52,479 nt of DNA from the IMG/VR virus record IMGVR_UViG_3300027850_000083, positions 1-52,479 of that record; one strand, 5' to 3'. Below, one piece after another: positions 1-38,657 of this stretch. The DNA is from a virus. Every line of letters starts with the position of its first letter. Within the stretch, counting starts at the first letter, position 1. The position numbers were made by a program, and so were the translations under genes. Below the pieces are notes generated by a model. The model did no database searches. It was not told the origin of the DNA and worked only from the letters and a program-made list of their open reading frames with translations.

Positions 1-7
1 TGTCACG

Positions 8-16
8 ATGATATCA
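8..16 (-). promoter_or_regulatory. Leftward promoter-like -10 element
   Basis: Read on the minus strand this is TGATATCAT, one base from the extended -10 box TGATATAAT seen elsewhere in the window. The flanking 17 bases (11-27) match 4951-4967 at 15 of 17 positions; that second copy belongs to the promoter of the leftward gene 3994-4923. This element probably drives a leftward gene beyond the left edge of the window. Confidence 0.45.
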
Positions 17-45
17 CATCTGCGAAGAAAGGTGTACCACCACGA

Positions 46-54
46 TGATATCCT
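46..54 (+). promoter_or_regulatory. Rightward extended -10 box, leaderless start at 61
   Basis: TGATATCCT is an extended -10 box ending six bases before the ATG at 61, with no Shine-Dalgarno sequence between, as expected for a leaderless transcript. The 12 bases CACGATGATATC occur twice, at 4-15 and 41-52, and could also be an operator. Confidence 0.45.
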
Positions 55-60
55 TGCTGC

Positions 61-285
61 ATGAACGTCTACGAAGGTGTGGCGCGCCTCTCGAAGATCG
101 ACCGCATGATCTCCGAGTTCGACTCGTTGTGCGATCAGCTCGACATCGACAACGACGCCCGTGCTGGTGTCGCGCGCAAGTTCACGCCGATGATGTGCCG
201 CCAACTCGCCGAGATCACAGGGTGCCCTCCGCCTTCTGACACAACGTGGATGACGTTGTGCGCCGTACTGGCTAGACGATGCTGA
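61..285 (+). CDS. Small hypothetical protein (74 aa)
   Basis: I do not recognise this protein. It is predicted to be mostly helical and has five cysteines (24, 46, 55, 67, 74) but no clear zinc-knuckle spacing. The ATG at 61 is chosen because a TATCCT -10 box ends six bases upstream and no ribosome binding site is visible, the same arrangement seen before several other genes here. An overlapping frame starting at 45 gives an arginine-rich low-complexity product and is less credible. A terminator-like hairpin follows at 329-350, so it is probably transcribed alone. Confidence 0.5.
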   Translation: MNVYEGVARLSKIDRMISEFDSLCDQLDIDNDARAGVARKFTPMMCRQLAEITGCPPPSDTTWMTLCAVLARRC

Positions 286-328
286 TACGGTTTCCGTAGC
301 CGCCATCGCGTCGGCTCCTTCCGACGAG

Positions 329-350
329 AGCCCGCCCTTCGGGGCGGGCT
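329..350 (+). terminator. Terminator-like hairpin
   Basis: AGCCCGCC and GGGCGGGCT form a GC-rich stem of about eight pairs with a CTTC-type loop, followed by a short T/G-rich stretch. It separates the gene at 61-285 from the methylase at 377. The T-tract is weak, so efficiency is uncertain. Confidence 0.6.
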
Positions 351-364
351 TCGTCGTTGTCAGC

Positions 365-370
365 TAGCTT
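365..370 (+). promoter_or_regulatory. -10 box TAGCTT, leaderless start at 377
   Basis: TAGCTT fits TANNNT and ends six bases before the ATG at 377. No Shine-Dalgarno sequence is present. It lies just after the terminator-like hairpin, where a new promoter would be expected. Confidence 0.4.
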
Positions 371-376
371 CCGCGA

Positions 377-1045
377 ATGCCACCGATCGGGAAGAAGGAT
401 CTCAACGGGCGCGGGCTCGCTCACCCGGCTCCGTACACTCGCTCGATCGTCGAGCTGTTCGGAACGCTGGAACTGAGCGGACGTGTGCTCGACCCGTTCG
501 CCGGGACCGGGCTCATCCACGACCTCGGGCTCGAAGCCGTAGGGGTCGAGATCGAGCCGGAGTGGGCCGAGCTGCGGGAGGGGACCATCATCGGAGATGC
601 CACGCGGCTGCCGTTCCGGGATGTCTGCTTCGACGCTGTGGTCACGTCATGCACCTACGGCAACCGCTACGCCGATCACCACAAGGCGAAGGACGGATCG
701 CTGCGCCGCACGTACACCCACGACCTCGGGCGCGACTTGCACCAGCGCAACACCGGCAAGATGGCCTGGAAGGGTCCGGGCGTTGGGCCGTACTGCGAGC
801 TGCACGAAGAAGCGTGGAGTGAGGTCTGGCGCGTGCTCGCGCGCGACGGCCGCTTCGTGCTGAACATCAAGAACCACATCAAGGCGGGCGTCGAACAGAT
901 GGTCACGGAGTGGCACGCCGAGCTGCTCTCGACGATTGGCTTCAACATGGTCCAGGCGCATCAGGTGTTCACGCCAGGAATGAGAGTCGGAGCCAATCGC
1001 CAACGGGTCCCGTTCGAGTCGGTCCTGGTGTGGCGCAAGCCATGA
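377..1045 (+). CDS. DNA methyltransferase (class I, SAM-dependent)
   Basis: A 222-residue methylase-like protein that probably adds a methyl group to adenine N6 or cytosine N4 of phage DNA. SAM-binding motif I is DPFAGTG (residues 39-45). The catalytic motif IV region reads TSCTYGNRYADHH (90-102), where classical amino-methylases have S/D/N-PP-Y, so both prolines are replaced. Phage methylases with similar SxTY variants exist as far as I recall, but the change makes activity uncertain. No target-recognition domain is obvious, and no restriction enzyme gene is adjacent, which suggests an orphan methylase protecting phage DNA from host restriction. The start follows a TAGCTT -10 box by six bases. 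Confidence 0.75.
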   Translation: MPPIGKKDLNGRGLAHPAPYTRSIVELFGTLELSGRVLDPFAGTGLIHDLGLEAVGVEIEPEWAELREGTIIGDATRLPFRDVCFDAVVTSCTYGNRYADHHKAKDGSLRRTYTHDLGRDLHQRNTGKMAWKGPGVGPYCELHEEAWSEVWRVLARDGRFVLNIKNHIKAGVEQMVTEWHAELLSTIGFNMVQAHQVFTPGMRVGANRQRVPFESVLVWRKP

Positions 1046-1050
1046 TGGTG

Positions 1051-1059
1051 TGATATAAT
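1051..1059 (+). promoter_or_regulatory. Perfect extended -10 promoter TGATATAAT
   Basis: TGATATAAT is a consensus extended -10 element (TG-N-TATAAT) in otherwise very GC-rich DNA. It sits six bases after the methylase stop and faces a stretch of about 500 bases with no convincing protein gene. Transcription would begin near 1065. Confidence 0.75.
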
Positions 1060-1065
1060 CGTGTT

Positions 1066-1520
1066 GTCGGAGGGGAGAGTCCCCGCCGGGAAGGAGTTCG
1101 CTTGACCAACAGGTGGCCCGGAGACGGGTGAGCCCCGCGAGTCAGGCGGGCGCCCTACGGACCGGAGCACGCGTTCCACCGTGCTGTGACCCCAGGCTCT
1201 GTCCGATCTACCGGTGAGCGTGCCGGTAGCACTCCTCTTGGGCATCCGTGGTGTGGGGGCCGTCTCGGTTTGCTGGTCCGAGCAGCACGAAGTCCAGGAG
1301 ATGACCCGAGAGGGGACAGGCTCGTGGGGCCGAGCGTGCAGCGGCCCGAGCAGGAAACTCCCTGGAGTTCGGATTCGCGGGAGTGTGTGACACGTCGGTC
1401 CGGGGGTGGCGCCCCATCAGTGACGCAGGCGTGAAGCGGCTCTCCCCGCCCGGTGACGGAGTTGAGACCGAGTGGCCGACCAACCACTCGGGAGGCTCGC
1501 TTCGAAACCGGGCTCCTTCG
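1066..1520 (+). ncRNA. Candidate long structured non-coding RNA
   Basis: No reading frame here looks like protein, yet the DNA is full of perfect inverted repeats behind the strong promoter at 1051. Local stems are 1166-1171/1180-1185 (6 bp), 1208-1214/1223-1229 (7 bp), 1264-1268/1278-1282 (5 bp), 1327-1332/1342-1347 (6 bp) and 1468-1475/1484-1491 (8 bp). Three of these have loops of exactly eight bases. GGGGAGAG at 1072-1079 is the exact complement of CTCTCCCC at 1440-1447, which would close a domain of about 376 bases. The transcript could be a free RNA or a long leader of the sigma-factor gene at 1578. It does not match RNase P, tmRNA or group I intron signatures I know. The boundaries are approximate. 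Confidence 0.5.
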
Positions 1521-1577
1521 CGAAACAACCGCCCAACGAAACGCCCTCGCGCGCGCTCGCGGGCGTACGTTGCGCGC

Positions 1578-2102
1578 GTGCTCGTATACGAGGACTTCGT
1601 CGAAGTAGCTCGACGATCAGCGGGACACTGGTGGGTGAAGCACACGAATCGCGGTCGACGATGGCCGTGGCTCGAACGTGCTGACGCCGAGAGCGAAGCG
1701 TGCGTAGCGCTCGTCAGGATCTGCGAGCTGTATGACGAGACCGTCGTCGTCGACATGCCACCTGAGCCGTTCGTCGCTCAACGGGTGCAGTGGGCGATGA
1801 TCGACTGGCACCGCCTCGTCTATGGCCGTGGTGATTGCCCGCCGCCTCCGCTGCATTTCGATTTCGATCTGTTCGCAGACGGCGGCTGGCTTGTTGATCA
1901 AGAAGTGATCGCCGAGTTCGAGCGGATCGAAGACCATGTCATGCTCGCCCAGATGATCGATGACCTCCCCGAGCGTGAGCGCGTGGTGATGCGTGGGCGC
2001 AGCCGGGGGCTCCGGTTGGCTGACATCGCTGACGACCTCGGGCTCACCGAAGGTCGGATCTGCCAGATCGAGAAGCAAGCGCTCGCTCGGCTCGCCTGCT
2101 AG
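1578..2102 (+). CDS. Sigma-70-family RNA polymerase sigma factor
   Basis: A protein of 174 residues from the GTG at 1578. Residues about 35-82 resemble sigma region 2, with VAQRVQWAMIDWHRL (66-80) matching the family pattern of a basic, tryptophan-containing helix. Residues 130-172 are a clear region 4: LPERERVVMRG followed by a helix-turn-helix (LADIADDLGLTEGRICQIEK). It would bind core polymerase and redirect it to phage promoters, perhaps one of the two promoter classes noted here. The frame stays open upstream to 1383, but that part is arginine/proline-rich and lies in the structured RNA region, so the later GTG is preferred. No clear ribosome binding site precedes it, so the start is uncertain. 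Confidence 0.65.
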   Translation: MLVYEDFVEVARRSAGHWWVKHTNRGRRWPWLERADAESEACVALVRICELYDETVVVDMPPEPFVAQRVQWAMIDWHRLVYGRGDCPPPPLHFDFDLFADGGWLVDQEVIAEFERIEDHVMLAQMIDDLPERERVVMRGRSRGLRLADIADDLGLTEGRICQIEKQALARLAC

Positions 2103-2131
2103 AAACGCGTTCCAAGGAACAGCTCGGGCAC

Positions 2132-2157
2132 GGACGCCCTCTCAACCGGAGGCGTCC
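2132..2157 (+). promoter_or_regulatory. Hairpin overlapping the endolysin ribosome binding site
   Basis: GGACGCC (2132-2138) pairs perfectly with GGCGTCC (2151-2157). The second arm includes part of the Shine-Dalgarno GGAGG (2148-2152) that serves the ATG at 2161. Folding would mask this site, and opening it would release translation. It may also act as a weak terminator after the sigma-factor gene. Confidence 0.5.
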
Positions 2158-2160
2158 TTC

Positions 2161-2868
2161 ATGCCCATCGGGGCGCATCAGCCTGTCGGCAACGCAGCGC
2201 AAGGTGGTTGCCGACCGGGTGCGACGGCACTTCACCAATACATCATCGATCGGTGGGGTGCAGGCGTTGGCAGCTTCGGGTGCTACAACCCGAACAGCCG
2301 CGCCGGATCGGGCTGGTCGCTGCACCGCGAAGGCCGTGCGATCGACGTGAGCATCGCCTCCTGGGCGAAGCAGAAAGGCGACCAGATCTTCACCTGGTGC
2401 GTCGCCAACGCCGATCACCTCGGACTGCAAGAGATCCAGTGGTCCGGGCGGATCTGGACGTCACGCAGGAATCAAGAAGGCATTCGCATTGACACGAGCG
2501 CGGCACGCGGCCTGCACTTCGACCACATCCACGTCGGACTCGCGTACGGCAATTCGTTCATCCCACCCGGCGGTGGCGGCATCCCCGGTGGTGGCAGCAC
2601 GCCCCCACCCTCACAAGGAGCAGAGGACTTGGCACAAGTACCGCAAGCGGAGTGGGACGAGATCCGGAACAAGGTGCGCGAGATCGACAACACCATGCAC
2701 AACAACGTCTACGGCGTGGCGATGAAGACGAACTCCATCGAGACGCTCGCGATGACCCGCAAGATCCGCGACGCGATCTTCAACAACACCTTCGGCGTGG
2801 CGCTCCAGAACATCACCATCGACACGTGGACCAAGGTCGGCGCGATGTTCGCACGAATGAAGGCTTGA
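2161..2868 (+). CDS. Endolysin, M15-like peptidase
   Basis: A 235-residue peptidoglycan peptidase. SLHREGRAID (53-62) and HFDHIHVG (119-126) give the zinc-ligand pattern H55, D62 and H122/H124 typical of M15/VanY-like LD-carboxypeptidases and L-alanyl-D-glutamate endopeptidases. A Pro/Gly linker (about 135-151) leads to an 80-residue tail in which two segments are similar (NNVYGVAMKTNSI and NNTFGVALQNITI); this is probably a wall-binding or oligomerisation part. There is no signal peptide, so export would depend on a holin. The ATG at 2161 has GGAGG eight bases upstream. A glycosidase partner, the Rpf-like protein at 15683, lies far away. Confidence 0.75.
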   Translation: MPIGAHQPVGNAAQGGCRPGATALHQYIIDRWGAGVGSFGCYNPNSRAGSGWSLHREGRAIDVSIASWAKQKGDQIFTWCVANADHLGLQEIQWSGRIWTSRRNQEGIRIDTSAARGLHFDHIHVGLAYGNSFIPPGGGGIPGGGSTPPPSQGAEDLAQVPQAEWDEIRNKVREIDNTMHNNVYGVAMKTNSIETLAMTRKIRDAIFNNTFGVALQNITIDTWTKVGAMFARMKA

Positions 2869-2870
2869 GA

Positions 2871-2876
2871 TATGAT
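2871..2876 (+). promoter_or_regulatory. -10-like TATGAT
   Basis: TATGAT sits in the short AT-richer patch right after the endolysin stop codon, about 100 bases before the gene at 2974. No good -35 box is visible, so it is a weak candidate. Confidence 0.3.
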
Positions 2877-2921
2877 CGTTTCAACGCTGCGTTCGGGGTT
2901 CTCCCGATCGTGAGCCTCCTG

Positions 2922-2951
2922 GCAGCCGGGGACCCCGCCCTCCCCGGCTGC
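2922..2951 (+). terminator. Strong 10-bp hairpin in the 2869-2973 gap
   Basis: GCAGCCGGGG (2922-2931) pairs perfectly with CCCCGGCTGC (2942-2951) around a ten-base loop. There is no T-tract, only TTCC, so it could be a factor-dependent terminator, an RNA processing signal or a stabilising leader hairpin for the gene at 2974, whose AAAGGAG follows closely. Confidence 0.5.
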
Positions 2952-2973
2952 TTCCGCGCCCAAAGGAGTTTCG

Positions 2974-3249
2974 ATGGCTGATGACCTTTCCGCCCAGCAG
3001 ATGACACCGGGGATGCTGATCGCACCAACGGACATGGCGTTCGGTGGTGGCGTGGTCTCTCCGCCCGACCAGCCGCCACTGATCAACCTACGCATCGAGA
3101 CGCCGAACGGCAGCTTCGCCTTCTTCTTCTCGGTCGAGATGGCGAGCCGGATGCGCCAGATGCTCGACGACATGCTGGTCGCCGCAGGCGGGCTCACGAT
3201 TCCGTCGTTGGTGCTCCCACCGGATGCAGGACGGCCCAACGGAAGCTAG
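2974..3249 (+). CDS. Hypothetical protein (91 aa)
   Basis: I recognise no family. The middle of the protein (LINLRIETPNGSFAFFFSVEMASRM, given here as features: two beta-like stretches around residues 36-52, then a helix) suggests a small alpha/beta fold. The ATG at 2974 has an excellent Shine-Dalgarno AAAGGAG at proper spacing, so translation is likely strong. It is preceded by a strong hairpin and followed by a separate promoter, which suggests its own short transcript. Confidence 0.6.
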   Translation: MADDLSAQQMTPGMLIAPTDMAFGGGVVSPPDQPPLINLRIETPNGSFAFFFSVEMASRMRQMLDDMLVAAGGLTIPSLVLPPDAGRPNGS

Positions 3250-3273
3250 GAGCGGCGGCGACCTCTGATCCCC

Positions 3274-3282
3274 GGTATCCTC
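3274..3282 (+). promoter_or_regulatory. Promoter core GGTATCCTC, leaderless start at 3290
   Basis: The -10 hexamer TATCCT (3276-3281) ends eight bases before the ATG at 3290, with no Shine-Dalgarno sequence. The core matches the boxes before the capsid protease (28992) and major capsid (36732) genes, which read GGTATC-N-TC. Confidence 0.5.
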
Positions 3283-3289
3283 GACTGAC

Positions 3290-3703
3290 ATGCAGGCGAT
3301 CGAGCAACCAACGCTGCGCAAGGCTCGGGAGCGATTGACCGAGATCGTGCCGGACGCGGTCGAGACGCTCGCCACACTGCTTGATGACGCTGATTCGAAG
3401 GTCCGCCTTGGAGCGGCGAAGGAAGTGCTGGATCGTGGCGGACTCCCGGCACGCATGGAGTTCGAGGCAACGCTCGACACGGCCGGGCTCGACGACGCCA
3501 TCGCGGGGCTCATCCTCAAGCTGGAGCGCAAGGGCACGATGCGACTCCTGCCAGACCTCGCTCCCGAGGAAGACGTCATCGACGCCGAGGTCATCGAGGA
3601 AGCAACGCTGGTCGTCGAGCCCCGTTCCCCGGAACTTCCACTCCCCGGTCTCGGTGACCTCGGGCACCCCAACGGCACCGGGAACGGCAACGGTCATGGC
3701 TGA
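3290..3703 (+). CDS. Helical DNA-binding-type protein, possible terminase small subunit
   Basis: The first 55 residues form two or three helices ending in KVRLGAAKEVLDRGGLP (37-53). To my knowledge this pattern is common in phage small terminase or related DNA-recognition proteins. The C-terminal half is acidic and Pro/Gly-rich (repeated P, G, N near residues 112-137). A small terminase normally binds packaging sites and the large subunit, but the large subunit gene is 10 kb downstream at 13906, so the assignment is tentative. The start is leaderless behind GGTATCCTC. The stop overlaps the next gene start. Confidence 0.55.
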   Translation: MQAIEQPTLRKARERLTEIVPDAVETLATLLDDADSKVRLGAAKEVLDRGGLPARMEFEATLDTAGLDDAIAGLILKLERKGTMRLLPDLAPEEDVIDAEVIEEATLVVEPRSPELPLPGLGDLGHPNGTGNGNGHG

Positions 3704-4025
3704 TCACCACTACACGACGCGTGACGGCATCATGTTCGTCGCCGGGGTGCTGCTCGTTGTAGCGATCGTGCTCGCGTTCACGTCGTCCTGGCTGTTGGCG
3801 TTGATCCCGGTCCTCGCGTGCGCGGGGGCGCTCGCGGGCGCTCCGTACGTGCGCTCTCGCGTGCCTGGCCGCAAGGCGAAGGGTGTCGTCTGGTTGCTCC
3901 CGCCGACGGGCTATGGCGAAGACGACGCGACCGAAGAGGAGCCCGAGTTGATCGAGCCCCTCCCCGCTTCGATGGTGATTGGTGACGGGCTGTTCAAGCC
4001 CGACGAACGATCATTGCCTTCGTAG
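3696..4025 (+). CDS. Small membrane protein, two predicted TM helices
   Basis: A 109-residue protein with hydrophobic helices at about residues 12-29 and 31-50 joined by a very short turn, then a basic stretch (VRSRVPGRKAK) and an acidic C-terminus rich in Glu/Asp. The topology (hairpin in the membrane, charged tail in the cytoplasm) resembles holin-like or superinfection-exclusion proteins, but nothing specific identifies it. The ATG at 3696 overlaps the previous stop by eight bases, implying translational coupling. Its 3' end overlaps the convergent gene 3994-4923 by 32 bases. Confidence 0.6.
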   Translation: MADHHYTTRDGIMFVAGVLLVVAIVLAFTSSWLLALIPVLACAGALAGAPYVRSRVPGRKAKGVVWLLPPTGYGEDDATEEEPELIEPLPASMVIGDGLFKPDERSLPS

Positions 4026-4923
4026 GCCGCTTACCGAAGCCGAAGAACTCGTCGTCTCGGCTGCGGATGATGTCGGCGTTGAAGCTGATCGTGTCACCGA
4101 CTTCGGCGTCGGCGATGGCGTTGGGCTTGGTGAGCCAGACCCGCCAGCCACCCTCACCTTCGACCAGCATCTTGAACTGGATCCCGTAGTCGCTGTCCTG
4201 GGTCTTGAGTGACTTGATCACACCGACCACCAGAAGGCGCTTGCCCTCGGGGAGCGGAACCTTCGGAGTTGCGTTCAGCTCCCGCACGAAACGCTCTGCC
4301 TCCTTCTCACCGTCACGCTCGAACGCACGAGCGATGGCGTCGATCTGGCGGTCGGAGATGGAACCGTATCGCTCCAGCTTCCAACCGACATCCCGCACGA
4401 AGCCGTCGGAGAAGTGGCGAGTCCCGTTCTCGTACTCAACCTCGTACGCTGCGAAGAACTCACCGACACCGGGGCGCTCAGCGAGAAAGGCGACCTTCTC
4501 CTCGGCGATGCGCTTGCGCTCCATCGCCGTTGCGTACGCCTTCGCCAGCTTGTTCTGAGCGAGCGTGCGCTTGTCGGTGACACCGAAGTAGGTCCCGGCG
4601 CAAACCTGACCGATGTGCCAGGCGAGTCCATCGAGAGCGATGGCGACTGCCCCGTGGTTGAAGCGCGCCCCGCAGTGATCACAGGTGCGCTTGGCAACGT
4701 CGGCGTAGCGGCCGTCGTACCAACCGGCAGGAACAGGAGCGCCAACAGTGACGAATCGCTCAGCGTCAATGCCACGCTCGACGAGCGCCGCTTCGAGAGC
4801 GCGCTCTTCGGGTGCGTAGATCTTGGCCCACTCGTCGGAGCCGCCATCGTAGAAGTAGCCGATGACGTTCCAGTCAGCAGGATCGAAGTCTGCGATGTGT
4901 CGGCTGAGTTGGTTCACGGTCAT
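3994..4923 (-). CDS. Hypothetical protein with zinc-binding motif and OB-like C-terminus
   Basis: This is the only convincing leftward gene in the window (309 aa). C81, C84, H103 and C108 could bind zinc (CDHCGARFNH onward). The middle (110-210) is helical. The last 80 residues alternate beta strands and end in a segment with GDTISFNADIIRSRDDEFFGFG, which resembles an OB-type nucleic-acid-binding barrel. A role in single-stranded DNA or RNA binding is an inference. The start has AGGAAGG upstream on the minus strand, and a perfect TGATATAAT promoter lies at 4956-4948. The opposite orientation suggests independent, probably early, expression. Confidence 0.75.
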   Translation of the reverse strand: MTVNQLSRHIADFDPADWNVIGYFYDGGSDEWAKIYAPEERALEAALVERGIDAERFVTVGAPVPAGWYDGRYADVAKRTCDHCGARFNHGAVAIALDGLAWHIGQVCAGTYFGVTDKRTLAQNKLAKAYATAMERKRIAEEKVAFLAERPGVGEFFAAYEVEYENGTRHFSDGFVRDVGWKLERYGSISDRQIDAIARAFERDGEKEAERFVRELNATPKVPLPEGKRLLVVGVIKSLKTQDSDYGIQFKMLVEGEGGWRVWLTKPNAIADAEVGDTISFNADIIRSRDDEFFGFGKRPTKAMIVRRA

Positions 4924-4947
4924 CTTCCCTTCCTTGGCTACGTACTT

Positions 4948-4999
4948 ATTATATCACATCAGCAAAGCGCCCGCACACCCTTTGTTCGTATGATATAAT
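4948..4999. promoter_or_regulatory. Divergent promoter pair with TGATATAAT boxes
   Basis: On the minus strand TGATATAAT occupies 4956-4948 and drives the gene ending at 3994 with a leader of roughly 18 bases carrying a ribosome binding site. On the plus strand TGATATAAT occupies 4991-4999 and ends six bases before the ATG at 5006, so that transcript is leaderless. The two start regions are about 65 bases apart, close enough for one regulator to control both. Confidence 0.8.
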
Positions 5000-5005
5000 G
5001 AAGAC

Positions 5006-5245
5006 ATGACTCAGGAACCCACCTTCGACGAACGAGTCGAACGACTCGTCCCGCTGACGGCTTACGGACCGACTTACAACCGGTTGGTGCGTGAGTCGCT
5101 GCTCGACGCGAAGCGTGAGCAGGACCGCGACAACGAGCAGTACGCCGAGCGGTGGCTGCTCAAGGCAGAGATGCACGCGAAGGTCATCACGTTCGAGGAG
5201 TACCAGGTACTCATCGCACAACGAGTAGAAGGGAAGCTGTTGTGA
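5006..5245 (+). CDS. Small hypothetical protein (79 aa)
   Basis: A charged, mostly helical protein without a recognised motif. It is the first gene of an overlapping operon running through the glycan cassette (GTGA overlaps at 5242, 5418, 5798). The ATG lies six bases after a perfect TGATATAAT and has no Shine-Dalgarno sequence, so translation should be leaderless. Being first behind a consensus promoter suggests early, strong expression. Confidence 0.65.
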   Translation: MTQEPTFDERVERLVPLTAYGPTYNRLVRESLLDAKREQDRDNEQYAERWLLKAEMHAKVITFEEYQVLIAQRVEGKLL

Positions 5246-5421
5246 TCGACGAAGAGCGTTGCCCCGACTGCGGGAGCGACAAGGAGTACGTCGAGTTCGA
5301 TTCTGATCGCGAAGGCATCGTCGGCTTTGCCCGATGCAGCGCGTGCGGCGAGACCACGGTCGAAGGATCGCAGGTGTGGGCCGAGTGGCTCAAGGGTCAG
5401 CGCCCGTGGCAGGAAGCGTGA
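5242..5421 (+). CDS. Zinc-ribbon mini-protein (59 aa)
   Basis: Four cysteines in two CxxC pairs (C7/C10 and C32/C35) with about 21 residues between fit a zinc ribbon. Such small phage proteins may bind nucleic acid or a host protein, but no specific function can be read. The GTG at 5242 overlaps the upstream stop as GTGA and the 3' end overlaps the next gene the same way, so it is translated in a coupled operon. Confidence 0.65.
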   Translation: MIDEERCPDCGSDKEYVEFDSDREGIVGFARCSACGETTVEGSQVWAEWLKGQRPWQEA

Positions 5422-5801
5422 GCACCACGTCGGTGTATCCCGCCGAAGACACTGTGTTCGCCAAGAAGATGCGCGGGCGCGACGTCGGAATGTCGATGCG
5501 TGATTCGACTGAGTTGATCCATCGCTACGTCCCCGACTACACCGTGCGGCGCACCTCGGGAGCGTTCGCCGCAGCGGGCTGGTGCAACTACAAGAAGAAG
5601 ATCATCAGCTTGCCGCGTGATGCAGGACTGCCGTACGTGTTGCACGAACTCGCTCACGCTCTTGCTCGGGAGCACGGTCACGGGCTCGCGTTCCAGAACG
5701 CGTACATCGATCTCGTCGCCAAGGAGATGAGCCCGTGGTGGGCTCGACGCCTGCGCGCATCGTTCATCAAGCACAAGACGAAGGGATACAAGTCACTGTG
5801 A
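5418..5801 (+). CDS. Zincin-type metallopeptidase-like protein
   Basis: A protein of 127 residues with HELAH (76-80) followed by a histidine at 86 or 88 (HGHG), the HExxH-type zinc site of SprT/WLM-like peptidases. Phages often carry such small single-domain zincins; their substrates are generally unknown. The N-terminal 60 residues hold beta strands that could form the sheet preceding the active-site helix. There is no signal peptide, so it should act in the cytoplasm. The GTG start overlaps the previous stop (GTGA), and the next gene starts the same way. Confidence 0.7.
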   Translation: MSTTSVYPAEDTVFAKKMRGRDVGMSMRDSTELIHRYVPDYTVRRTSGAFAAAGWCNYKKKIISLPRDAGLPYVLHELAHALAREHGHGLAFQNAYIDLVAKEMSPWWARRLRASFIKHKTKGYKSL

Positions 5802-6121
5802 AGGCGCTCACGATCACGCTCGAAGGCGTCGGTTCCATCCGCAACGGGGACTCCGTGCGCGTGCGCCCGCGCAAGGCTCGCGGGCGAGACGGCTTCACCG
5901 GGATCTTCCGAGGTGCTGTTCTTGACGACGCCGGTTCAGTACGGTGGCTCGAAGTCTTCGGCGGGCGCAACGGTGGATTCAACGCCGTGACCCCTGAGCG
6001 AATCGAGTGGGCCACCAGTGCAGGACGAGATCACGGTACTGACGCCGACGTTGCCCGACCGGAAGGATCTGCTGGAGCAAGCAAGAGAGTCCGTCGCCGT
6101 TCAGCTTCACGCCGCCGCTGA
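5798..6121 (+). CDS. Hypothetical protein overlapping a glycosyltransferase gene
   Basis: The first 73 residues look like a small beta-rich domain (NGDSVRVRPRKARG, then a strand pair ending EVFGGRNGGFNAVTPERIEW). The remaining 34 residues are Arg/Ser-rich and are encoded in DNA that also encodes the start of the glycosyltransferase at 6018, a 104-base overlap. The domain looks like a KOW/SH3-type barrel, but this is only an impression. The start is a GTGA overlap with the zincin gene. Confidence 0.55.
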   Translation: MKALTITLEGVGSIRNGDSVRVRPRKARGRDGFTGIFRGAVLDDAGSVRWLEVFGGRNGGFNAVTPERIEWATSAGRDHGTDADVARPEGSAGASKRVRRRSASRRR

Positions 6122-6551
6122 CCACGTCGTCATCACCGACGACGTCCAGGCAGGACCGGCGAAGACCCGCAACGCGGGGCTGGAGCACGTCTCCACACCG
6201 TGGACGGCGTTCCTCGACGACGACGACCTCATGGATCGTGGGCACCTCAAGCTGCTGATCGCTGAGGCCGAACGCTCCGAGGCGACCGTCGTTTGGAGCT
6301 GGTGCCGCCGCATCGACGGCGGGCCGGAGATTCCTCGGGCAGCGTTCTTCGATCCGATCGAGCTGCGCCAGGACAACTTCATCCCGATCACCGTGCTCGC
6401 TCAGACGGACGCTGTGCGCGCGGTTGGTGGGTTCGACCCAACGGCCGAACACGAAGATCACGATCTCTGGCTGCGGATGCTGGACAACGGGGCTAGGTTC
6501 AGCGTTGTACGGGCCGTGACATGGAGCTATCGGGGCCGGGAGAACGAGTGA
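6018..6551 (+). CDS. Family 2-like glycosyltransferase
   Basis: A short (177 aa) GT-A glycosyltransferase. The N-terminus ITVLTPTLPDR is the first Rossmann strand and nucleotide-binding turn, GPAKTRNAG (46-54) is a typical acceptor-side helix, and FLDDDDL (65-71) contains the metal-binding DxD. HEDHDLWLRM near 141-150 supplies the usual ED-type catalytic base. WTAFLDDDDL is shared with the gene at 6639, so the two are paralogues. It begins the glycan cassette. The start GTG at 6018 is needed to include the first strand. Confidence 0.8.
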   Translation: MQDEITVLTPTLPDRKDLLEQARESVAVQLHAAADHVVITDDVQAGPAKTRNAGLEHVSTPWTAFLDDDDLMDRGHLKLLIAEAERSEATVVWSWCRRIDGGPEIPRAAFFDPIELRQDNFIPITVLAQTDAVRAVGGFDPTAEHEDHDLWLRMLDNGARFSVVRAVTWSYRGRENE

Positions 6552-6817
6552 CGCCGTGGATCATGCTGGCTGTGGCAGCCGCTGTGCTGATCTTCCTCTT
6601 CCTCGTACTCGCGATGTTGCACACGTCGAAGGGCGCCGATGATCGAGTACGACGACTGCGACCCCCTTCCGATTTCGGTGTGCGTGCCCACCATCCAAGC
6701 CAGGGCGGACCGCTTGCTTCGCCGGGCGATCGAGAGCGTGCTGACCCAGCAGCGGCTACCGGCCCAGATCGTGGTGGTCCCGGATCGGGATCGCATGGGA
6801 GCGGGCCACACCCGTAA
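6548..6817 (+). CDS. Possible small single-TM protein
   Basis: The GTG at 6548 overlaps the previous stop as GTGA. The product would start with a hydrophobic helix (residues about 4-25, rich in A, V, L, F) followed by a Pro/Gly/Arg-rich tail. The tail is encoded in the same DNA as the start of the glycosyltransferase at 6639, so only the first 30 codons are independent. It could be a membrane anchor for the cassette enzymes or a spurious frame. Confidence 0.4.
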   Translation: MTPWIMLAVAAAVLIFLFLVLAMLHTSKGADDRVRRLRPPSDFGVRAHHPSQGGPLASPGDRERADPAAATGPDRGGPGSGSHGSGPHP

Positions 6818-7262
6818 CCGCTCCATCGATCTTGCTGATCAGGAGTGGACGGCGTTCCTCGACGACGACGACCTGCTGTACCCGATGCATTTGCGCGTGC
6901 TCTACGAGTGCGCGATGGAGTCGGGCGCCGACATCGTCTACCCGTGGTTCGACTGCACCGCTCCGTTGATGATCGAGCGTCACTTCCCCGACCGTGAGTT
7001 CGAGGTCTGGGACAACGACTATCCGCAGATCATCCCGGTCACCGCTCTGGTGCGTTCCGAGTTCGCCAAGCAGGCGCGCTTCGGCGTCGTCACGCGCGAG
7101 AGCATCAAGGACGGAAGCTGGGATGGTGATGACTGGCCGTTCTGGCGTGACTGCATGAAGCTCGGAGCGAAGATCGTTCACCTCCCGCTGCGCACTTGGC
7201 TTTGGGTCCATCACTACGATCGAACCGGATCGAACACGTCCGGGCTCCCCTGGCGGTGGTAG
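6639..7262 (+). CDS. Family 2-like glycosyltransferase
   Basis: A 207-residue GT-A enzyme paralogous to the one at 6018. PISVCVPTIQAR is the first strand, GAGHTRNRSIDLA (54-66) the acceptor-side helix, and FLDDDDL (73-79) the DxD motif. WDGDDWPFWRDCMKLGA near the C-terminus carries the expected acidic catalytic segment. The sugar donor cannot be read from sequence. GAAGGG precedes the ATG at 6639 at suitable spacing. It is probably a component of the pathway that builds a virion or cell-surface glycan. Confidence 0.8.
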   Translation: MIEYDDCDPLPISVCVPTIQARADRLLRRAIESVLTQQRLPAQIVVVPDRDRMGAGHTRNRSIDLADQEWTAFLDDDDLLYPMHLRVLYECAMESGADIVYPWFDCTAPLMIERHFPDREFEVWDNDYPQIIPVTALVRSEFAKQARFGVVTRESIKDGSWDGDDWPFWRDCMKLGAKIVHLPLRTWLWVHHYDRTGSNTSGLPWRW

Positions 7263-7273
7263 GAAACACTTTC

Positions 7274-7927
7274 GTGATCTCAATCGTGTTTCCCTATCGA
7301 TCCGACGGCGGAGAGCGTGACCGCATCCTGACCTGGGTCGAAGCGCGCTACCGACACCAGCTCCCCGATGCGGAGATCGTCTACGGCTGCGACCACGGCG
7401 ATCCGCAGTTCAACCGAGGCCAAGCCATCAACGACGGCGTCGAACAGTCGACCGGCGACATCTTGGTGATCAGCGACATCGACGTCTTCGTGCGCACGGT
7501 GAACATGCGAGGAGCCATCCAAGTCGCAGCTCGGGACATCGACAACGCCTGGGTGATCCCGTGGTCGACGTTCTACGTGCTGACCAAACCAGCGAGTGAG
7601 CACGTTCGCTACGCCAACCCCGTCGATGACATCTTGGTCGAGAACCTCGACTGGGAAGACCGTCTTCCGCCCGTTCCTCAAGGCATGTTCGTGGTCGGGC
7701 GATCGGCGTTCGAGCGTACTGGCGGCATGGACGAAGGCTTCATCGGATGGGGGTTTGAAGACAACGCGTTCGCTCACGCAGCGCGCAACACAGCGAAGCT
7801 ACGCCTCTCGACACTGCCGGGCGGGTGTGGGCACATCTGGCATCCACGCACGGTCAACGATGGGTTCAGTCAGCCCAACATCGATCACAATCGTCAACGC
7901 TGGGAGACACTCAGATGCGGGTCTTAG
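7274..7927 (+). CDS. Galactosyltransferase-like glycosyltransferase (GT2/GT7 type)
   Basis: A 217-residue enzyme with VISDIDVF (65-72) as DxD motif and GGMDEGFIGWGFEDNAF (150-166), which closely follows the GWGxED signature of the GT7/beta-1,4-galactosyltransferase C-terminal domain. HIWHP near the end fits the metal-binding histidine of such enzymes. The GTG at 7274 is chosen because AGGA lies nine bases upstream and the previous gene stops at 7262; frames upstream overlap that gene. The transferred sugar is probably a hexose such as galactose or a derivative, by family analogy. Confidence 0.75.
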   Translation: MISIVFPYRSDGGERDRILTWVEARYRHQLPDAEIVYGCDHGDPQFNRGQAINDGVEQSTGDILVISDIDVFVRTVNMRGAIQVAARDIDNAWVIPWSTFYVLTKPASEHVRYANPVDDILVENLDWEDRLPPVPQGMFVVGRSAFERTGGMDEGFIGWGFEDNAFAHAARNTAKLRLSTLPGGCGHIWHPRTVNDGFSQPNIDHNRQRWETLRCGS

Positions 7928-9141
7928 TTGCTGGGCTCGGCAAGTTGGGCGCTCCTCTCATGGCCGTGCTCGCCAACAGCGGAGTCGAGGCGATCGGTTA
8001 CGACCGCAACCCGAAGACTGTCGCCTTGATCAACGACCGCATCGCCCCCGTGGCTGAGCCTGGTCTCCAAGAGCTGATCGAGTCAGCGCCGTTCTTCACT
8101 GCCACGATCAACCCAGCAGCAGCCGAGATGTGCGACTACGTCTTCATCGTCGTGCCAACGCCATCGACGAAGCAGTCGCGACGCTTCTCGAACCGCTACG
8201 TGCTCGAAGCGATCGACGCCGTTGGGCCACACCTACAACCCGACACCGTCGTCGTCGTCAATTCGACGGTGATGCCGGGCTCGATGTCGGGAGTCATCCG
8301 ACAGTCGCTCCGTGACAGCACGCATCACGACGAAGAGTTGGGTCTCTGCTACAACCCCGAGTTCATCGCACTGGGCGAGGTCATCGACGGAATCCGTCAT
8401 CCGAGCTTCGTGCTGATCGGTGCAGAGCAGCAATGGGCTGCGGACCGCCTTACCGACCTCACGCGCAAGTTCGTCTCTCCGGTCACGACTCCGGTCAAGA
8501 TCATGTCGTCGATCGATGCTGAGATCACGAAGCTGGCGCTCAACAACTACGTCACAATGAAGATCAGCTTCGCCAACGCCATCGGCGAGCTGTGCGATCG
8601 CAACTACGGCGCTGACGCCGAGACGGTGCTCAACGCAGTCGGGCTCGACTTCCGAGTGGGTCAGCCCTACCTGCGACCGGCCACGGCCTACGGCGGACCG
8701 TGTTTCCCGCGCGATGTTCGAGCGTTCCAGGCATTGGTCGATGACGACCACATCCTTGGAGCGTTCGCTCGCGCGACCGAATCAGTCAACGACCACCAGA
8801 CTGAACGCATGATCACCAAGCTGCTCGCTACCGGCAAACGCACCTTCGCTGTCCTGGGTGTGAGCTACAAGCCGGGGACGGCTGTCGACGACGAATCGCC
8901 AGGGCTCCACCTGGCGGCGCGACTCGTCGAACAAGGCATGACAGTGTTCGTTCACGAACCGGCGCTCGGGCACGAGAATCCGTGCGACCTGATTCGCCAA
9001 GCTGATGTCGTCGTCGTGATGACTCCGGATCAACGCTTCCGCGGGATCGAAGAGTTCGGTGAGAAGCGGCTGTTGCTGGATCCGTGGCGGATCATCAAGG
9101 GTGACCAGTGGGATCGGATTCCGTGGGGAGGAACAGCGTGA
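7915..9141 (+). CDS. UDP-glucose/GDP-mannose dehydrogenase family enzyme
   Basis: A 408-residue nucleotide-sugar dehydrogenase that oxidises a sugar C6 alcohol to a carboxylate with NAD, for example UDP-glucose to UDP-glucuronate. GLGKLG (7-12) is the NAD-binding loop, YNPEFIALGEVIDG (146-159) is the family signature, K206 and N210 lie in the conserved active-site helix, and C263 in GGPCFPRD is the catalytic cysteine. The C-terminal third (YKPGTAVDDESPG) is the UDP-binding domain. Length and order are normal, so it is probably active. It overlaps the previous gene by 13 bases. Confidence 0.85.
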   Translation: MRVLVAGLGKLGAPLMAVLANSGVEAIGYDRNPKTVALINDRIAPVAEPGLQELIESAPFFTATINPAAAEMCDYVFIVVPTPSTKQSRRFSNRYVLEAIDAVGPHLQPDTVVVVNSTVMPGSMSGVIRQSLRDSTHHDEELGLCYNPEFIALGEVIDGIRHPSFVLIGAEQQWAADRLTDLTRKFVSPVTTPVKIMSSIDAEITKLALNNYVTMKISFANAIGELCDRNYGADAETVLNAVGLDFRVGQPYLRPATAYGGPCFPRDVRAFQALVDDDHILGAFARATESVNDHQTERMITKLLATGKRTFAVLGVSYKPGTAVDDESPGLHLAARLVEQGMTVFVHEPALGHENPCDLIRQADVVVVMTPDQRFRGIEEFGEKRLLLDPWRIIKGDQWDRIPWGGTA

Positions 9142-9929
9142 GGGTCACCTACAGCGCTCTCGGGAAAGTCGGTCGCCTCGGAAACCAACTGTGGCAGATT
9201 GCGTCGACAGCAGGCATCGCTGAGCGGCGCGACGCTGTGCCGATGTTCGACCCTGGCTGGATCTACCGCCCGTGGTTCTGCATCCCTGATGAGTTCTTCG
9301 AGTACGACGGCAAAGACGACATCGTCGACTCGACATGGATGTGCGAAGAGCTGGACCTTCGCGCGCGCCCGTACCTCCAGCGATACTCACTCATGGAGCC
9401 TGTTGCCGCTCAAGTGCGCGAGTGGTTCCAACCGAGCGATCTAGCGATGGAGCTGATCAACAAGCACCGCGGACTCATCCCCGGACCAGGACTCACCACG
9501 GCAGTCCACGTCCGCCGCGGTGACAACTTGCTGCCTGATCACGACGGCTACTACGAGGTCCCCGGTGAGAGCTACTACCGGCGTGCGCTCGGGCACTTCG
9601 ATGGCTACCCGGTGTTCTTCTCCGACGACATCGACTGGTGCATGAAGACGTTCCAGGATCTCGACGCTGTGTTCATCGTGCCGAACATCCTCACGGTTCC
9701 CGAGGATGGAATCGGAGAACGCGTCACTCCGGCGCTCGACTGGCTCGACATGCAGCTCATGGCACTCTGCGACTACCACGTCATCTCGAACTCGACGTAC
9801 TCATGGTGGGGAGCGTTCCTCAGTGGTGATGCTGTCGTAGCGCGTCCGAAGTGTTGGTTCGGTCCGAAGATCGACTGGACCAACGTCGACTTGATGATGC
9901 CGAAAGGATGGTTCGACGTTCCGTGCTGA
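9138..9929 (+). CDS. GT11 alpha-1,2-fucosyltransferase-like enzyme
   Basis: A 263-residue protein with GRLGNQLWQIA near the N-terminus, VHVRRGD (123-129) and SNSTYSWWGAFL near residues 212-223, the three hallmarks of family GT11. These enzymes use a GDP-sugar, usually GDP-L-fucose. Here the cassette lacks a recognisable fucose pathway but has a GDP-mannose 3,5-epimerase-like enzyme at 11330, whose product GDP-L-galactose is a close analogue. L-galactose transfer is therefore a reasonable inference. The GTG start overlaps the dehydrogenase stop (GTGA). Confidence 0.85.
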   Translation: MRVTYSALGKVGRLGNQLWQIASTAGIAERRDAVPMFDPGWIYRPWFCIPDEFFEYDGKDDIVDSTWMCEELDLRARPYLQRYSLMEPVAAQVREWFQPSDLAMELINKHRGLIPGPGLTTAVHVRRGDNLLPDHDGYYEVPGESYYRRALGHFDGYPVFFSDDIDWCMKTFQDLDAVFIVPNILTVPEDGIGERVTPALDWLDMQLMALCDYHVISNSTYSWWGAFLSGDAVVARPKCWFGPKIDWTNVDLMMPKGWFDVPC

Positions 9930-10600
9930 TGAACTTCAACGAGCTGGTCACCAAGCACAACATGCGAATCAAGAGGGTTCTGCATGTTGGTGGGCACCTT
10001 GGTGAAGAAGCGAACGACTACCGACACAATGGCGTTCGTCACGTCACTTGGGTCGAAGCAGATCCGATCGTCGCTCGCGATCTTGAACGAGCGGTGCGAC
10101 GCTTTCACCACCGAGTGATCAACGCACTCGTCACCGATCAAGACAACGTCGAGATGGAGTTCTACGTCACGAACGAGCAGAGCCTCTCGTCGTCGGTGCT
10201 GCATTTCGGTACGCACGCGAAGACGTCGCCGGACATGGTCGTCGAAGAAACGAAGGTGCTCACGTCACGCACGATCAACTCGCTGATGGCCGAAGGATCG
10301 CAGCGAGACTGGCGAGAGATCGACCTCCTGAACATGGACGTGCAAGGTGCTGAGCTGATGGTGCTGCGTGGGGCGACAGATCTGTTGCCTCAACTTCGCT
10401 ACGTGCTCAGTGAAGTCAATCACCAAGACGTCTACCAGAGCTGCGCTCAGATCGAACAACTCGACGCACTGTTGCTTCCGTACGGACTGGTGCGCATGGA
10501 CACGTACTTCACGATGGACGGCTGGGGCGACGCGCTCTGGGTCAAGCGAAAGGAACTCGCGAGTGATCAAGGTGCTAGTGACGGGCTACAACTGCCCTGA
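9929..10600 (+). CDS. FkbM-family SAM-dependent methyltransferase
   Basis: A 223-residue O-methyltransferase. VLHVGGHLGEE (17-27) is the SAM-binding motif, WVEADP (41-46) binds the ribose, and NMDVQGAELMVLRG (about 137-150) is the FkbM family signature. In glycan clusters FkbM enzymes usually methylate sugar hydroxyls, which fits the neighbours. The ATG at 9929 shares its first base with the previous stop (TGATG). Confidence 0.85.
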   Translation: MNFNELVTKHNMRIKRVLHVGGHLGEEANDYRHNGVRHVTWVEADPIVARDLERAVRRFHHRVINALVTDQDNVEMEFYVTNEQSLSSSVLHFGTHAKTSPDMVVEETKVLTSRTINSLMAEGSQRDWREIDLLNMDVQGAELMVLRGATDLLPQLRYVLSEVNHQDVYQSCAQIEQLDALLLPYGLVRMDTYFTMDGWGDALWVKRKELASDQGASDGLQLP

Positions 10601-11318
10601 GTGGATCGGAAGGGGACTGGCGAGCGTTCGTGACCAAGATCTCGATGAACCGTTCGAGGTCTGTATGGTCGACGATGGATCGACCGACCCAGCGCAACGT
10701 GAAGCAATGCTGGCTGTGCTCGACACTGTCCCAGAAGTTCAGACGTGGCATCTGCTGCTCCGAGGATCGAACCGCAAGGCGACGTTCTCCGTGCAGCAGG
10801 CGATGATCATCCTTGACCCCGACCCCTACGACATTGTCGTGCTGCTCGATGGTGACGACTACCTCGCCCCGTGGGCGCTCTCGTACTTGCGCGACATGTA
10901 CGAACGCGATGCCAACTGTTGGCTGACCTACGGACAGTACGAGCCCGTCCCACACAACACCGGGCAAGTGCTTGCGTCCGCGTACCCGCGTGAGGTGCTT
11001 GATCGTCGCACGTTCCGTCAGCACCCGATCGTCTTCAACCACCCTTACAGTTTCCGCTACTTCCTCTTCTCGAAGGTGCGGATAGCGGACGCGCAAGACG
11101 CATCGGGAAACTGGTTCCGCGCTGGGATGGACCAGGTGTACCTCTACCCGATGTTGGAGATGGCTGGGAAGCACCACATCCGGTTCATCGACAAGACGCT
11201 CTACTACTACAACGCTGTGAACCCGCGGAGCGAGACACACATCCAAGACGAGGAGCCGAATCCAGGAGAGCTGATTCGGTCCCTTCCGAAACGCGAATTG
11301 CTTCGACACCGCCCGTAA
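10563..11318 (+). CDS. Family 2 glycosyltransferase
   Basis: A 251-residue GT-A enzyme. IKVLVTGYNC is the first strand, VDDGSTD (36-42) the classical nucleotide-binding motif and LDGDDYL (95-101) the metal-binding DxD. It differs from the paralogous pair at 6018/6639 and so probably uses another donor or acceptor. The start overlaps the FkbM gene by 38 bases. A new promoter candidate lies across its stop codon. Confidence 0.85.
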   Translation: MIKVLVTGYNCPEWIGRGLASVRDQDLDEPFEVCMVDDGSTDPAQREAMLAVLDTVPEVQTWHLLLRGSNRKATFSVQQAMIILDPDPYDIVVLLDGDDYLAPWALSYLRDMYERDANCWLTYGQYEPVPHNTGQVLASAYPREVLDRRTFRQHPIVFNHPYSFRYFLFSKVRIADAQDASGNWFRAGMDQVYLYPMLEMAGKHHIRFIDKTLYYYNAVNPRSETHIQDEEPNPGELIRSLPKRELLRHRP

Positions 11319-11322
11319 AGTC
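11315..11322 (+). promoter_or_regulatory. Promoter core GTAAAGTC, leaderless start at 11330
   Basis: TAAAGT (11316-11321) fits TANNNT and GTAAAGTC fits the GTANNNTC pattern found before several late genes. The ATG at 11330 is eight bases downstream and has no ribosome binding site. Confidence 0.45.
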
Positions 11323-11329
11323 ACGCTCC

Positions 11330-12292
11330 ATGTGGGCAGTGACCGGGGCCGGGGGCTTCATCGGCGGGCACATGGTGAAGCGACTCATCGCGATGGGCGA
11401 AGACGTTGTCGGCATCGACCAGAAGTCGATCATGGACTGGTATCAGGTGCCGAGCGGCGAGGCGTGTCGCGCTGGCGTGAACCTCAGTCACGTCGACGAC
11501 GCTGTGAAGGCACTGCACGGTGCCAAGCATGTGATCCACCTCGCCGCTGACATGGGCGGGATGGGCTTCATCGAGACGCACAAGGCCGAGTGCATGTTGA
11601 GCGTGCTCAGCTCGACGGCGGTGCTGATCGGAGCGGCCCGCAACCAGGCTCACGGGCTCTTCTACGCCAGCTCGGCGTGCGTGTACCCCGGCTACCTCCA
11701 GGACACCACGGGGGTGGCTGATGGGCTCCGTGAGGCTGATGCCTACCCGGCGATGCCCGAGGACGGCTACGGGTACGAGAAGCTCTTCTCTGAGCGGATG
11801 TCCCGGCACTTCATGGAAGACTTTCACCTTCCGACTTTCGTGGGCCGCTACCACAACGTCTACGGACCGCACGGGACGTGGGAGGGCGGGCGCGAGAAGG
11901 CGCCAGCGGCAATCTGTCGGAAGGTGATCGAGGCGAAGCTCAGCGGGATCCACGACATCGAGATCTGGGGCGACGGTGAGCAGACCCGGAGCTTCATGTA
12001 CGTCGACGACTGCGTCGAAGGCACGCTGCGCCTCATGCGCTCGGACTTCCATGACCCCATCAACATCGGGTCCGATCGGCTAGTGACGATCAACGAGCTG
12101 GTGACGATCGTGGAGAAGATCGCGGGGATTTGGCTGGACAGGCACTACAAGCTGGATGCACCGTTGGGTGTGCGCGGCCGGAACTCCAACAACGAGCTGA
12201 TCCGTGCGACGCTCGGGTGGGAACCCAAGGTCTCGCTCGAAGACGGGATGGCCGAGACGTACGACTGGATCTACTCTCAGATCACTCAGTGA
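11330..12292 (+). CDS. GDP-mannose 3,5-epimerase-like sugar-nucleotide epimerase
   Basis: A 320-residue extended short-chain dehydrogenase. TGAGGFIG (5-12) binds NAD, and SSACVYP (114-120, C117) and YGYEK (147-151) carry the active-site residues. The segments LAADMGGMGFI, a long NVYGPHGTWEGGREKAP stretch, GDGEQTRSFMYVDDCVEG and VRGRNSNNE match GDP-mannose 3,5-epimerase of the ascorbate route rather than ordinary GalE or RmlB enzymes. The reaction would convert GDP-D-mannose to GDP-L-galactose (and GDP-L-gulose). The likely consumer is the GT11 enzyme at 9138. Confidence 0.8.
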   Translation: MWAVTGAGGFIGGHMVKRLIAMGEDVVGIDQKSIMDWYQVPSGEACRAGVNLSHVDDAVKALHGAKHVIHLAADMGGMGFIETHKAECMLSVLSSTAVLIGAARNQAHGLFYASSACVYPGYLQDTTGVADGLREADAYPAMPEDGYGYEKLFSERMSRHFMEDFHLPTFVGRYHNVYGPHGTWEGGREKAPAAICRKVIEAKLSGIHDIEIWGDGEQTRSFMYVDDCVEGTLRLMRSDFHDPINIGSDRLVTINELVTIVEKIAGIWLDRHYKLDAPLGVRGRNSNNELIRATLGWEPKVSLEDGMAETYDWIYSQITQ

Positions 12293-12314
12293 TCGTTGAC
12301 GGAAGGAAGATCCT

Positions 12315-13412
12315 GTGCGCGTGAAGATCTTCCCTGCTGATCGAAGCGGGTGCGGCTACTACCGCTGCATCTTCCCCGCCCGAGCAGTGCAAGCGTCGGG
12401 TAACGAGCGAGTCGAAGTGTTCGTCGTCGATGACGACGAGAACCAGGACATGATCCTCAACGCGAAGTTCGGTGGAACGGTCGGTCGACCGCAGATCTTC
12501 GAGATCGACAATCCCGAGTGCGACGTGTTGGTGTTGCAGCGTCCGATGGACCGCAAACTCGTCGAAGCGATTCCGCTCATCCAAGCACATGGAACGGCCG
12601 TGGTGGTCGAGATCGACGATGACTTCGACACGCTCTCGCCGAAGAACCCGGCGTTCCGTGCAGCGAGTCCACGATTCAGTCCCGAGTCCAACTCGATGTG
12701 GTTCGGGCTCGCTCTCCAGACGTGTGACTACGTGATCACCTCGACCGAAGCGCTGCTCAAGCGCTACGGCCAACGTGGCAATGCCTGCTCGATCTCCAAC
12801 TACGTCCCCGAGAGCTACTTCAAGACCGAGCCGTACACCAAGGGGATTCGAGAGGATCTCTGGATCGGCTGGCCGGGCAACCCGTTCTCGCATCCTGGTG
12901 ATCTCGAAGTGGTGTCAACGTCGGTTCGCGACGTGATGCGTGAGCACGACAGCACCTGGCTCTACACCGTTGGTCACGATTCCACGATCAGTCGCTTCCA
13001 GTGTGATGAGTTCACTCCCGCGCGCACGCACGTAGCGCACTGGTCACCGTTGCTGGAGCATGCTCAATCAACATGCGAACTGGATGTCGGACTTGCTCCA
13101 CTATCTCGCGTCCCGTTCAACACGGCGAAGAGCTGGATCAAGCCGTTGGAGTACGCAGCGCTCGGGGTCCCGTTCGTTGCATCGCCCACGCGAGAGTACC
13201 GGCGACTCCAGAAGCTGACGGGCGTTGGTGAGATGGCCGAATACCCGATCGACTGGAAACTCAGTCTGGGCAAGCTCGTCAGTGATGATGACTACCGAGC
13301 TGAACGTGCGGCGCTCCAGCGCGAAGCTGTGCGCACGCTGACCTACGAAGAACACCTCGACGAATGGGTGAACGCGTGGTCAATGGCTATGGCATATCGA
13401 TCGGCCCGGTGA
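12315..13412 (+). CDS. Glycosyltransferase (GT-B type)
   Basis: A 365-residue protein with two Rossmann-like halves. The N-terminus (PADRSGCGYYR) resembles phage GT-B glycosyltransferases that start with a GxGYYR loop. VVVEIDDDFDTL lies at about residue 95-106 and the C-terminal half holds DVGLAPLSRVPFNTAKSW and KPLEYAALGVPFVAS, the donor-binding signature with the catalytic glutamate of GT4-like enzymes. Substrates are unknown. The GTG at 12315 has AAGGA seven bases upstream. It closes the cassette; two small genes follow before the terminase. Confidence 0.75.
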   Translation: MRVKIFPADRSGCGYYRCIFPARAVQASGNERVEVFVVDDDENQDMILNAKFGGTVGRPQIFEIDNPECDVLVLQRPMDRKLVEAIPLIQAHGTAVVVEIDDDFDTLSPKNPAFRAASPRFSPESNSMWFGLALQTCDYVITSTEALLKRYGQRGNACSISNYVPESYFKTEPYTKGIREDLWIGWPGNPFSHPGDLEVVSTSVRDVMREHDSTWLYTVGHDSTISRFQCDEFTPARTHVAHWSPLLEHAQSTCELDVGLAPLSRVPFNTAKSWIKPLEYAALGVPFVASPTREYRRLQKLTGVGEMAEYPIDWKLSLGKLVSDDDYRAERAALQREAVRTLTYEEHLDEWVNAWSMAMAYRSAR

Positions 13413-38556: not shown

Positions 38557-38573
38557 TCGTGATTGCGGGGCTG

Positions 38574-38615
38574 AGCCCCTGGAGTGGTGAGAGCGCTCTC
38601 ACTGCTCCAGGGGCT
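38574..38615 (+). terminator. Strong nested terminator after the major capsid gene
   Basis: AGCCCCTGGAG (38574-38584) pairs with CTCCAGGGGCT (38605-38615), and inside it GTGAGAGC pairs with GCTCTCAC. The hairpin is followed by TTTCCCT. This is the clearest intrinsic terminator in the window, 17 bases after the capsid stop. Confidence 0.85.
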
Positions 38616-38657
38616 TTCCCTGTGCCAGAAACCGACCGACGAGAGCAGGTTCACCAG

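Follow-up and report, generated by a model that had tools for sequence, protein, structure and literature searches.

A probable long noncoding transcript or untranslated leader ahead of the sigma-factor gene of an uncultured phage

What does an uncultured phage make from the longest gene-free gap of its recovered sequence, which lies directly ahead of a putative sigma-factor gene? IMGVR_UViG_3300027850_000083 is a 52.5-kb virus record encoding terminase, portal and major capsid genes; all 52,479 nucleotides of it were analysed and are referred to below as the window. The named phages nearest to its capsid protein are Arthrobacter phage Mimi and Actinomycetia phage DSL-LC01, and the host is therefore probably an actinobacterium. 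In the gene list used, the gap (positions 1046-1577) is 532 nt long, followed by gaps of 290 and 216 nt. With 67.7% GC it is among the more GC-rich gaps and in the top 2% of windows; GC-rich long intergenic regions are a criterion for enriching structured noncoding RNAs (PMC8723152). Judging from its sequence, the likely product of the locus is either a long noncoding RNA or an untranslated leader, also long, ahead of the sigma gene. Our preferred, tentative reading (probability of about 0.4) is a noncoding transcript of ~450 nt that ends at a 3' hairpin, beyond which some transcription would continue into the sigma gene. The elements on which this reading depends are the following.

377-1045, plus strand: DNA methyltransferase-like gene (Pfam N6_N4_Mtase and Methyltransf_11; coding score)
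1051-1059, plus strand: extended -10 promoter TGATATAAT, a perfect match, with transcription expected to start at ~1066
1066-1522, plus strand: proposed noncoding transcript of ~450 nt, whose 5' end would be set by the promoter and 3' end by the terminal hairpin
1448-1513, plus strand: 3' hairpin (7+6+3+8 bp, 8-nt loop) followed by TCCTTCGCG, a candidate terminator or attenuator and 3'-end stabiliser
1578-2102, plus strand: WhiG/FliA-like sigma factor, 174 aa from GTG 1578 (TIGR02937, FliA_WhiG, PDB WhiG 7lq4, Pfam Sigma70_r4)

Of the whole finding, the promoter is the most secure component. It begins 5 nt after the methyltransferase stop codon, and the first-pass annotation, which had placed a consensus promoter at 1051, is borne out by its enrichment: four TGNTATAAT sites occur in 52 kb, each of them in the form TGATATAAT, against 0.02 expected from dinucleotide shuffles, and no shuffle contained four. 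Copies at 4948 (minus strand) and 4991 (plus strand) are located just upstream of two gene starts. These two form a divergent pair within an AT-rich gap (4924-5005, 44% GC), and the plus-strand copy apparently drives a leaderless gene with its ATG at 5006. The 11-mer TGTGATATAAT was also found in five fetched capsid-related virus records, where it stands upstream of other sequences. A 13-16-nt match covering GGTGTGATATAAT recurs in seven capsid-related virus records and was 22-54 nt upstream of an ATG in the five loci read, a recurrence that suggests a promoter type common to these viruses.

Downstream of the promoter, about 500 bases had been described as lacking a credible gene. This stands for 1046-1382, where most frames have codon scores of zero or below and none is clearly positive. 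Translations of the ORFs of this part matched no family in Pfam or PHROGs, two of them had no credible match in phage records, and a search for a conserved reading frame across 1066-1520 came back negative. The noncoding status of 1383-1577 is less certain, since the sigma reading frame stays open as far upstream as GTG 1383.

At the far end of the proposed transcript lies what is, on its statistics, the only strongly non-random element of the region. The segment 1446-1515, which contains the 3' hairpin, has a predicted folding energy of -39.7 kcal/mol (z -5.2; none of the shuffles was equally stable), is in the top 0.1% of 70-nt windows and ranks 11th in stability among non-overlapping 70-nt windows of both strands of the 52 kb. 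Several other windows of top stability fall in gaps after genes (38557-38680, 2869-2973 and 286-376) and have weak T tails: CTTTCCC at 38557-38680, CTTCCGCG at 2869-2973 and CTTCGTCG after 286-376. These hairpins look like terminators in their sequence and setting, and the TCCTTCGCG tail appears similar. A terminator scanner that needs a T-rich tail, run on positions 1-6000, called neither the 3' hairpin, whose U-tract is poor, nor the other weak-T-tail hairpins of that interval. The record's most stable hairpin (38557-38625) has a near-perfect 20-bp stem directly after the major capsid gene and is a probable terminator. Ahead of the gene at 2974, the 2869-2973 gap has a TATGAT box as well as a GC hairpin of 12 bp, and it may be a short structured leader or attenuator.

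According to our preferred reading, transcription would start at ~1066 from the extended -10 promoter at 1051 and run to about 1520; the 1448-1513 hairpin would stabilise the 3' end and terminate transcription incompletely, with most transcripts stopping near 1515-1522 and a minority continuing into the sigma gene, which begins at 1578. In this way one locus would both supply a free structured RNA and determine the level of the phage sigma factor; any function in trans is conjectural. For a ~450-nt RNA we count the motif enrichment, the 532-nt GC-rich gap, the weak or absent coding signal, the z -5.2 hairpin and the sigma gene downstream. Counted against it are folding of the whole domain within the range of ordinary windows, the poor U-tract, the absence of a diverged homologue and the ORF open to GTG 1383; a 3-nt indel in a near-identical sister contig fits either reading.

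The same elements could serve in cis alone, as a roughly 510-nt 5' UTR of the sigma mRNA that has no separate RNA function and controls expression by attenuation at 1448-1513 or by masking of the ribosome site. We consider this possible, though doubtful. The strand is that of the sigma gene, and no nearer TGATATAAT-type promoter was seen, in particular none between 1513 and 1578. Attenuation might also involve a mini-ORF at the 5' end of the transcript:

1091-1131, plus strand: possible leader mini-ORF of 9 codons (MTNRWPGDG) with AAGGAG, TTG start at 1102 and stop at 1129-1131

The predicted pairing of TTG 1102 with the anti-Shine-Dalgarno sequence, -12.4 kcal/mol, was surpassed by only one of 45 tested gene starts. 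Such a Shine-Dalgarno sequence followed by nine codons would suit leader-peptide attenuation, and may also be a chance occurrence. Phage-satellite operons with untranslated leaders of 150-200 nt have been described (PMC7567579); a leader of about 510 nt would be a long one. The sigma start itself has no good Shine-Dalgarno sequence (-3.4 kcal/mol at GTG 1578, about the random median), and no riboswitch or leader family of Rfam matched. Sequence alone does not tell a trans-acting RNA from an attenuated leader.

How much of the region is folded was a separate matter, as the claim of a long structured RNA had been built on perfect stems and a long-range match. The predicted fold of the region consists of a closing helix, a long arm, several hairpins and the separate 3' hairpin at 1448-1513; in addition to the latter, its parts are as follows.

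1072-1081, plus strand: 5' strand of the proposed closing helix P1, pairing with 1438-1447 (mean pair probability 0.83)
1438-1447, plus strand: 3' strand of P1, pairing with 1072-1081
1116-1129, plus strand: hairpin with a GAGA (GNRA-type) tetraloop (pair probability 0.99; z -2.9 for 1113-1132)
1132-1330, plus strand: long arm closed by 12 bp (1132-1143 with 1319-1330; pair probability of the closing helix 0.97)
1357-1384, plus strand: hairpin (z -2.4 for 1355-1386)

The long arm contains hairpins 1166-1185 and 1208-1229 and a rod at 1232-1315 (z -2.3 for 1162-1189, -2.5 for 1204-1233 and -2.8 for 1230-1317); segment 1389-1435 has a z of 0.1. The 8-bp match of 1072-1079 with 1440-1447, which encloses 376 nt and can be lengthened to 10 bp if one G-U pair is included, is present as claimed; one such match was observed against 1.62 expected by chance, so it is not significant. 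The three stems with eight-base loops are likewise there (1166-1185, 1208-1229 and 1468-1491). The claim of at least five perfect local stems holds for arms of at least 5 bp, of which there are ten, and fails for arms of at least 6 bp, of which there are four; these counts were matched by 4.4% and 5.5% of shuffles, respectively, and four stems of at least 6 bp were also reached in 6% of genome windows, which makes the excess marginal (P about 0.05). Because they are near chance at 68% GC, the long-range helix and most of the perfect stems give no support to a designed fold. A 7-bp pseudoknot (1090-1096 with 1513-1519) was set aside, since chance alone is expected to produce long-range matches of such length.

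Statistics for the whole region point the same way. Its folding z is -2.6 for 1064-1530, -2.2 for 1066-1530 and -1.0 for 1066-1465, where 104 windows per strand of the genome have a mean of about -0.55, an SD of 1.26 and extremes down to -4.5. The absolute MFE is in the lowest 1% of plus-strand windows, largely because GC is 68%, and the ensemble confidence is ordinary. The multi-branched fold of 1072-1447 is a model prediction only and an elaborate folded RNA domain is unproven, while a noncoding transcript with one exceptional hairpin is credible. At this GC content, perfect stems and an 8-bp long-range match weigh little; the promoter, the gap length and the single exceptional hairpin weigh more.

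The marginal stem counts, the chance-level long-range match and the z of -1.0 for 1066-1465 would also be expected of an ordinary spacer, in which GC-rich sequence under no selection for structure, for instance the remains of a gene or a 5' UTR that does not fold, follows the promoter. A 19-nt imperfect direct repeat (17/19), which occurs at the end of the methyltransferase gene (1018-1036) and again inside the candidate RNA (1394-1412) and has a probability of about 1% by shuffling, fits this explanation as well, and so does the failure to find homologues. We nevertheless regard a spacer as unlikely: the phage is tightly packed elsewhere, no frame matches any protein family, and both the promoter enrichment and the z -5.2 hairpin would be left unexplained.

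The search for relatives returned a single further copy. The sister contig IMGVR_UViG_3300007521_000180 carries the same region with 99.86% identity over 7.1 kb; across the region the only difference is a 3-nt indel at about 1524, and the two are identical over the modelled structural parts, too close a match for covariation to show. The region gave only short chance pieces in blastn against phages and plasmids, and only the sister and short pieces, the promoter motif included, against 50 records (46 from IMG/VR, the sister among them, and four phage genomes). Two covariance models of 172 and 203 positions that followed the predicted structure retrieved the sister alone from 100 records, the rest scoring at noise, and an nhmmer search of ~1.6 Mb of fetched DNA gave no match. 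Hits to exact 16-19-mers from the RNA in IMG/VR and 84,980 species genomes were chance matches that did not extend. Four relatives located by methyltransferase synteny have no similar RNA downstream, and the sigma protein had a relative in the viral and genome collections only in the sister contig. The long gap of DSL-LC01 (17499-18278), considered as a homologue, proved to be unrelated AT-rich sequence. No diverged homologue was thus found in IMG/VR neighbours or in phage, plasmid and sampled genome data, an absence that is not proof, since close relatives may be missing from the data searched, many of the records are incomplete and a model built on one sequence does not reach far.

The statement that the RNA matches no class that can be named agrees with our comparison: Rfam gave no match in the window at the gathering threshold, and with an E-value limit of 10 only the unrelated RF02975 (E 4.4, minus strand), so nothing credible emerged. 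A resemblance to RNase P (GGAAACUCC...GGAG) was dropped, as it had no Rfam match. The 532-nt gap does fall within a loose class of phage long noncoding RNAs, described as gene-free regions with a promoter and longer than about 300 nt. The nearest precedent in this class is phage ICP1, which produces an abundant ORF-less transcript of ~800 nt seen by RNA-seq (PMC7567579). The likeness consists in a long gene-free gap in a virulent phage that gives a noncoding transcript away from tRNAs; the ICP1 transcript, however, is longer, was shown by RNA-seq and lies by the lysis cluster, whereas here transcription is deduced and the neighbour is a sigma gene. The phage ornate large RNAs GOLLD and ROOL (PMC12286853) are likewise large phage-encoded noncoding RNAs, but the candidate is shorter (the studied ROOL has 659 nt and GOLLD often has over 800 nt; PMC12286853) and has neither an Rfam match nor a covariation-supported structure. 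Membership of either family was rejected for lack of a covariance-model match, and ARAGORN detected neither a tRNA nor a tmRNA anywhere in the 52 kb, whereas these RNAs often lie close to phage tRNA islands.

Binding of RNA polymerase, which had been suggested for the candidate, would liken it to 6S RNA and to Ms1 of Actinobacteria, the phylum infected by the phage's relatives; the known cases are about 180-300 nt long (PMC9130861). We rejected membership, as there was no Rfam match and the MFE fold is multi-branched instead of a rod with a central bubble. Positive evidence was found neither for a polymerase decoy, the 6S/Ms1 match being absent, nor for a ribosome decoy. That the locus represents a new class of large structured RNA confined to one actinobacteriophage lineage, co-transcribed with the WhiG/FliA-like sigma gene and influencing transcription of the host or the phage, perhaps through sequestration of RNA polymerase or of the sigma factor, is in our estimate quite improbable. 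The candidate is an orphan of a known kind (a phage long noncoding RNA or leader) and not a demonstrated new RNA class. If real, it would add one more orphan to the few long noncoding RNAs of phages, in an actinophage lineage, and its position ahead of a phage sigma factor would make a role in transcription switching testable.

An RNA-based replication origin of an extrachromosomal prophage is very unlikely: the transcribed noncoding regions of 400-500 bp in mycobacteriophages Alma and LadyBird provide an actinobacterial precedent of similar size, but they adjoin parABS (PMC7157519), and here iterons are absent from the region and neither PF13614 (ParA-type) nor PF02195 (ParB) had a match in either copy, both records being fragments.

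The remaining question is where the sigma protein begins. The claim that the region precedes a sigma-factor gene is upheld by the TIGR02937 model of the sigma-70 superfamily, which matches residues 6-172, counted from GTG 1578, with 45.6 bits, above the curated cutoff of 42.9, and so places the protein in the sigma-70 family. Pfam Sigma70_r4 matches at 1.3e-9 and FliA_WhiG at 2.9e-14, the latter under that model's own cutoff; the nearest solved structures are WhiG and FliA (PDB WhiG 7lq4 at 1.7e-5). A structure prediction of the protein was unusable (pLDDT 39). Since the sigma domain starts at residue 6 after GTG 1578, no part of the gap is required for a complete protein, and the gap is probably not a missed N-terminus. 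Translation from GTG 1383, which would leave only 1046-1382 untranslated, agrees with the open frame, a coding score slightly above zero across ~1351-1500, a predicted anti-Shine-Dalgarno pairing of -5.9 kcal/mol and the in-frame length of the sister's indel, but the score drops to zero or lower over about 1441-1620 and the extra 65 residues are basic, of low complexity and without a family match, and we hold this start to be very unlikely and coding of 1383-1577 to be unlikely.

Two further observations concern other parts of the record. Glycosyltransferases, a UDP-glucose dehydrogenase and a nucleotide-sugar epimerase follow one another at 6018-13412 and form a phage glycan cluster. A collagen-repeat protein is encoded at 31057-31815, and phage DSL-LC01 is annotated with one too.
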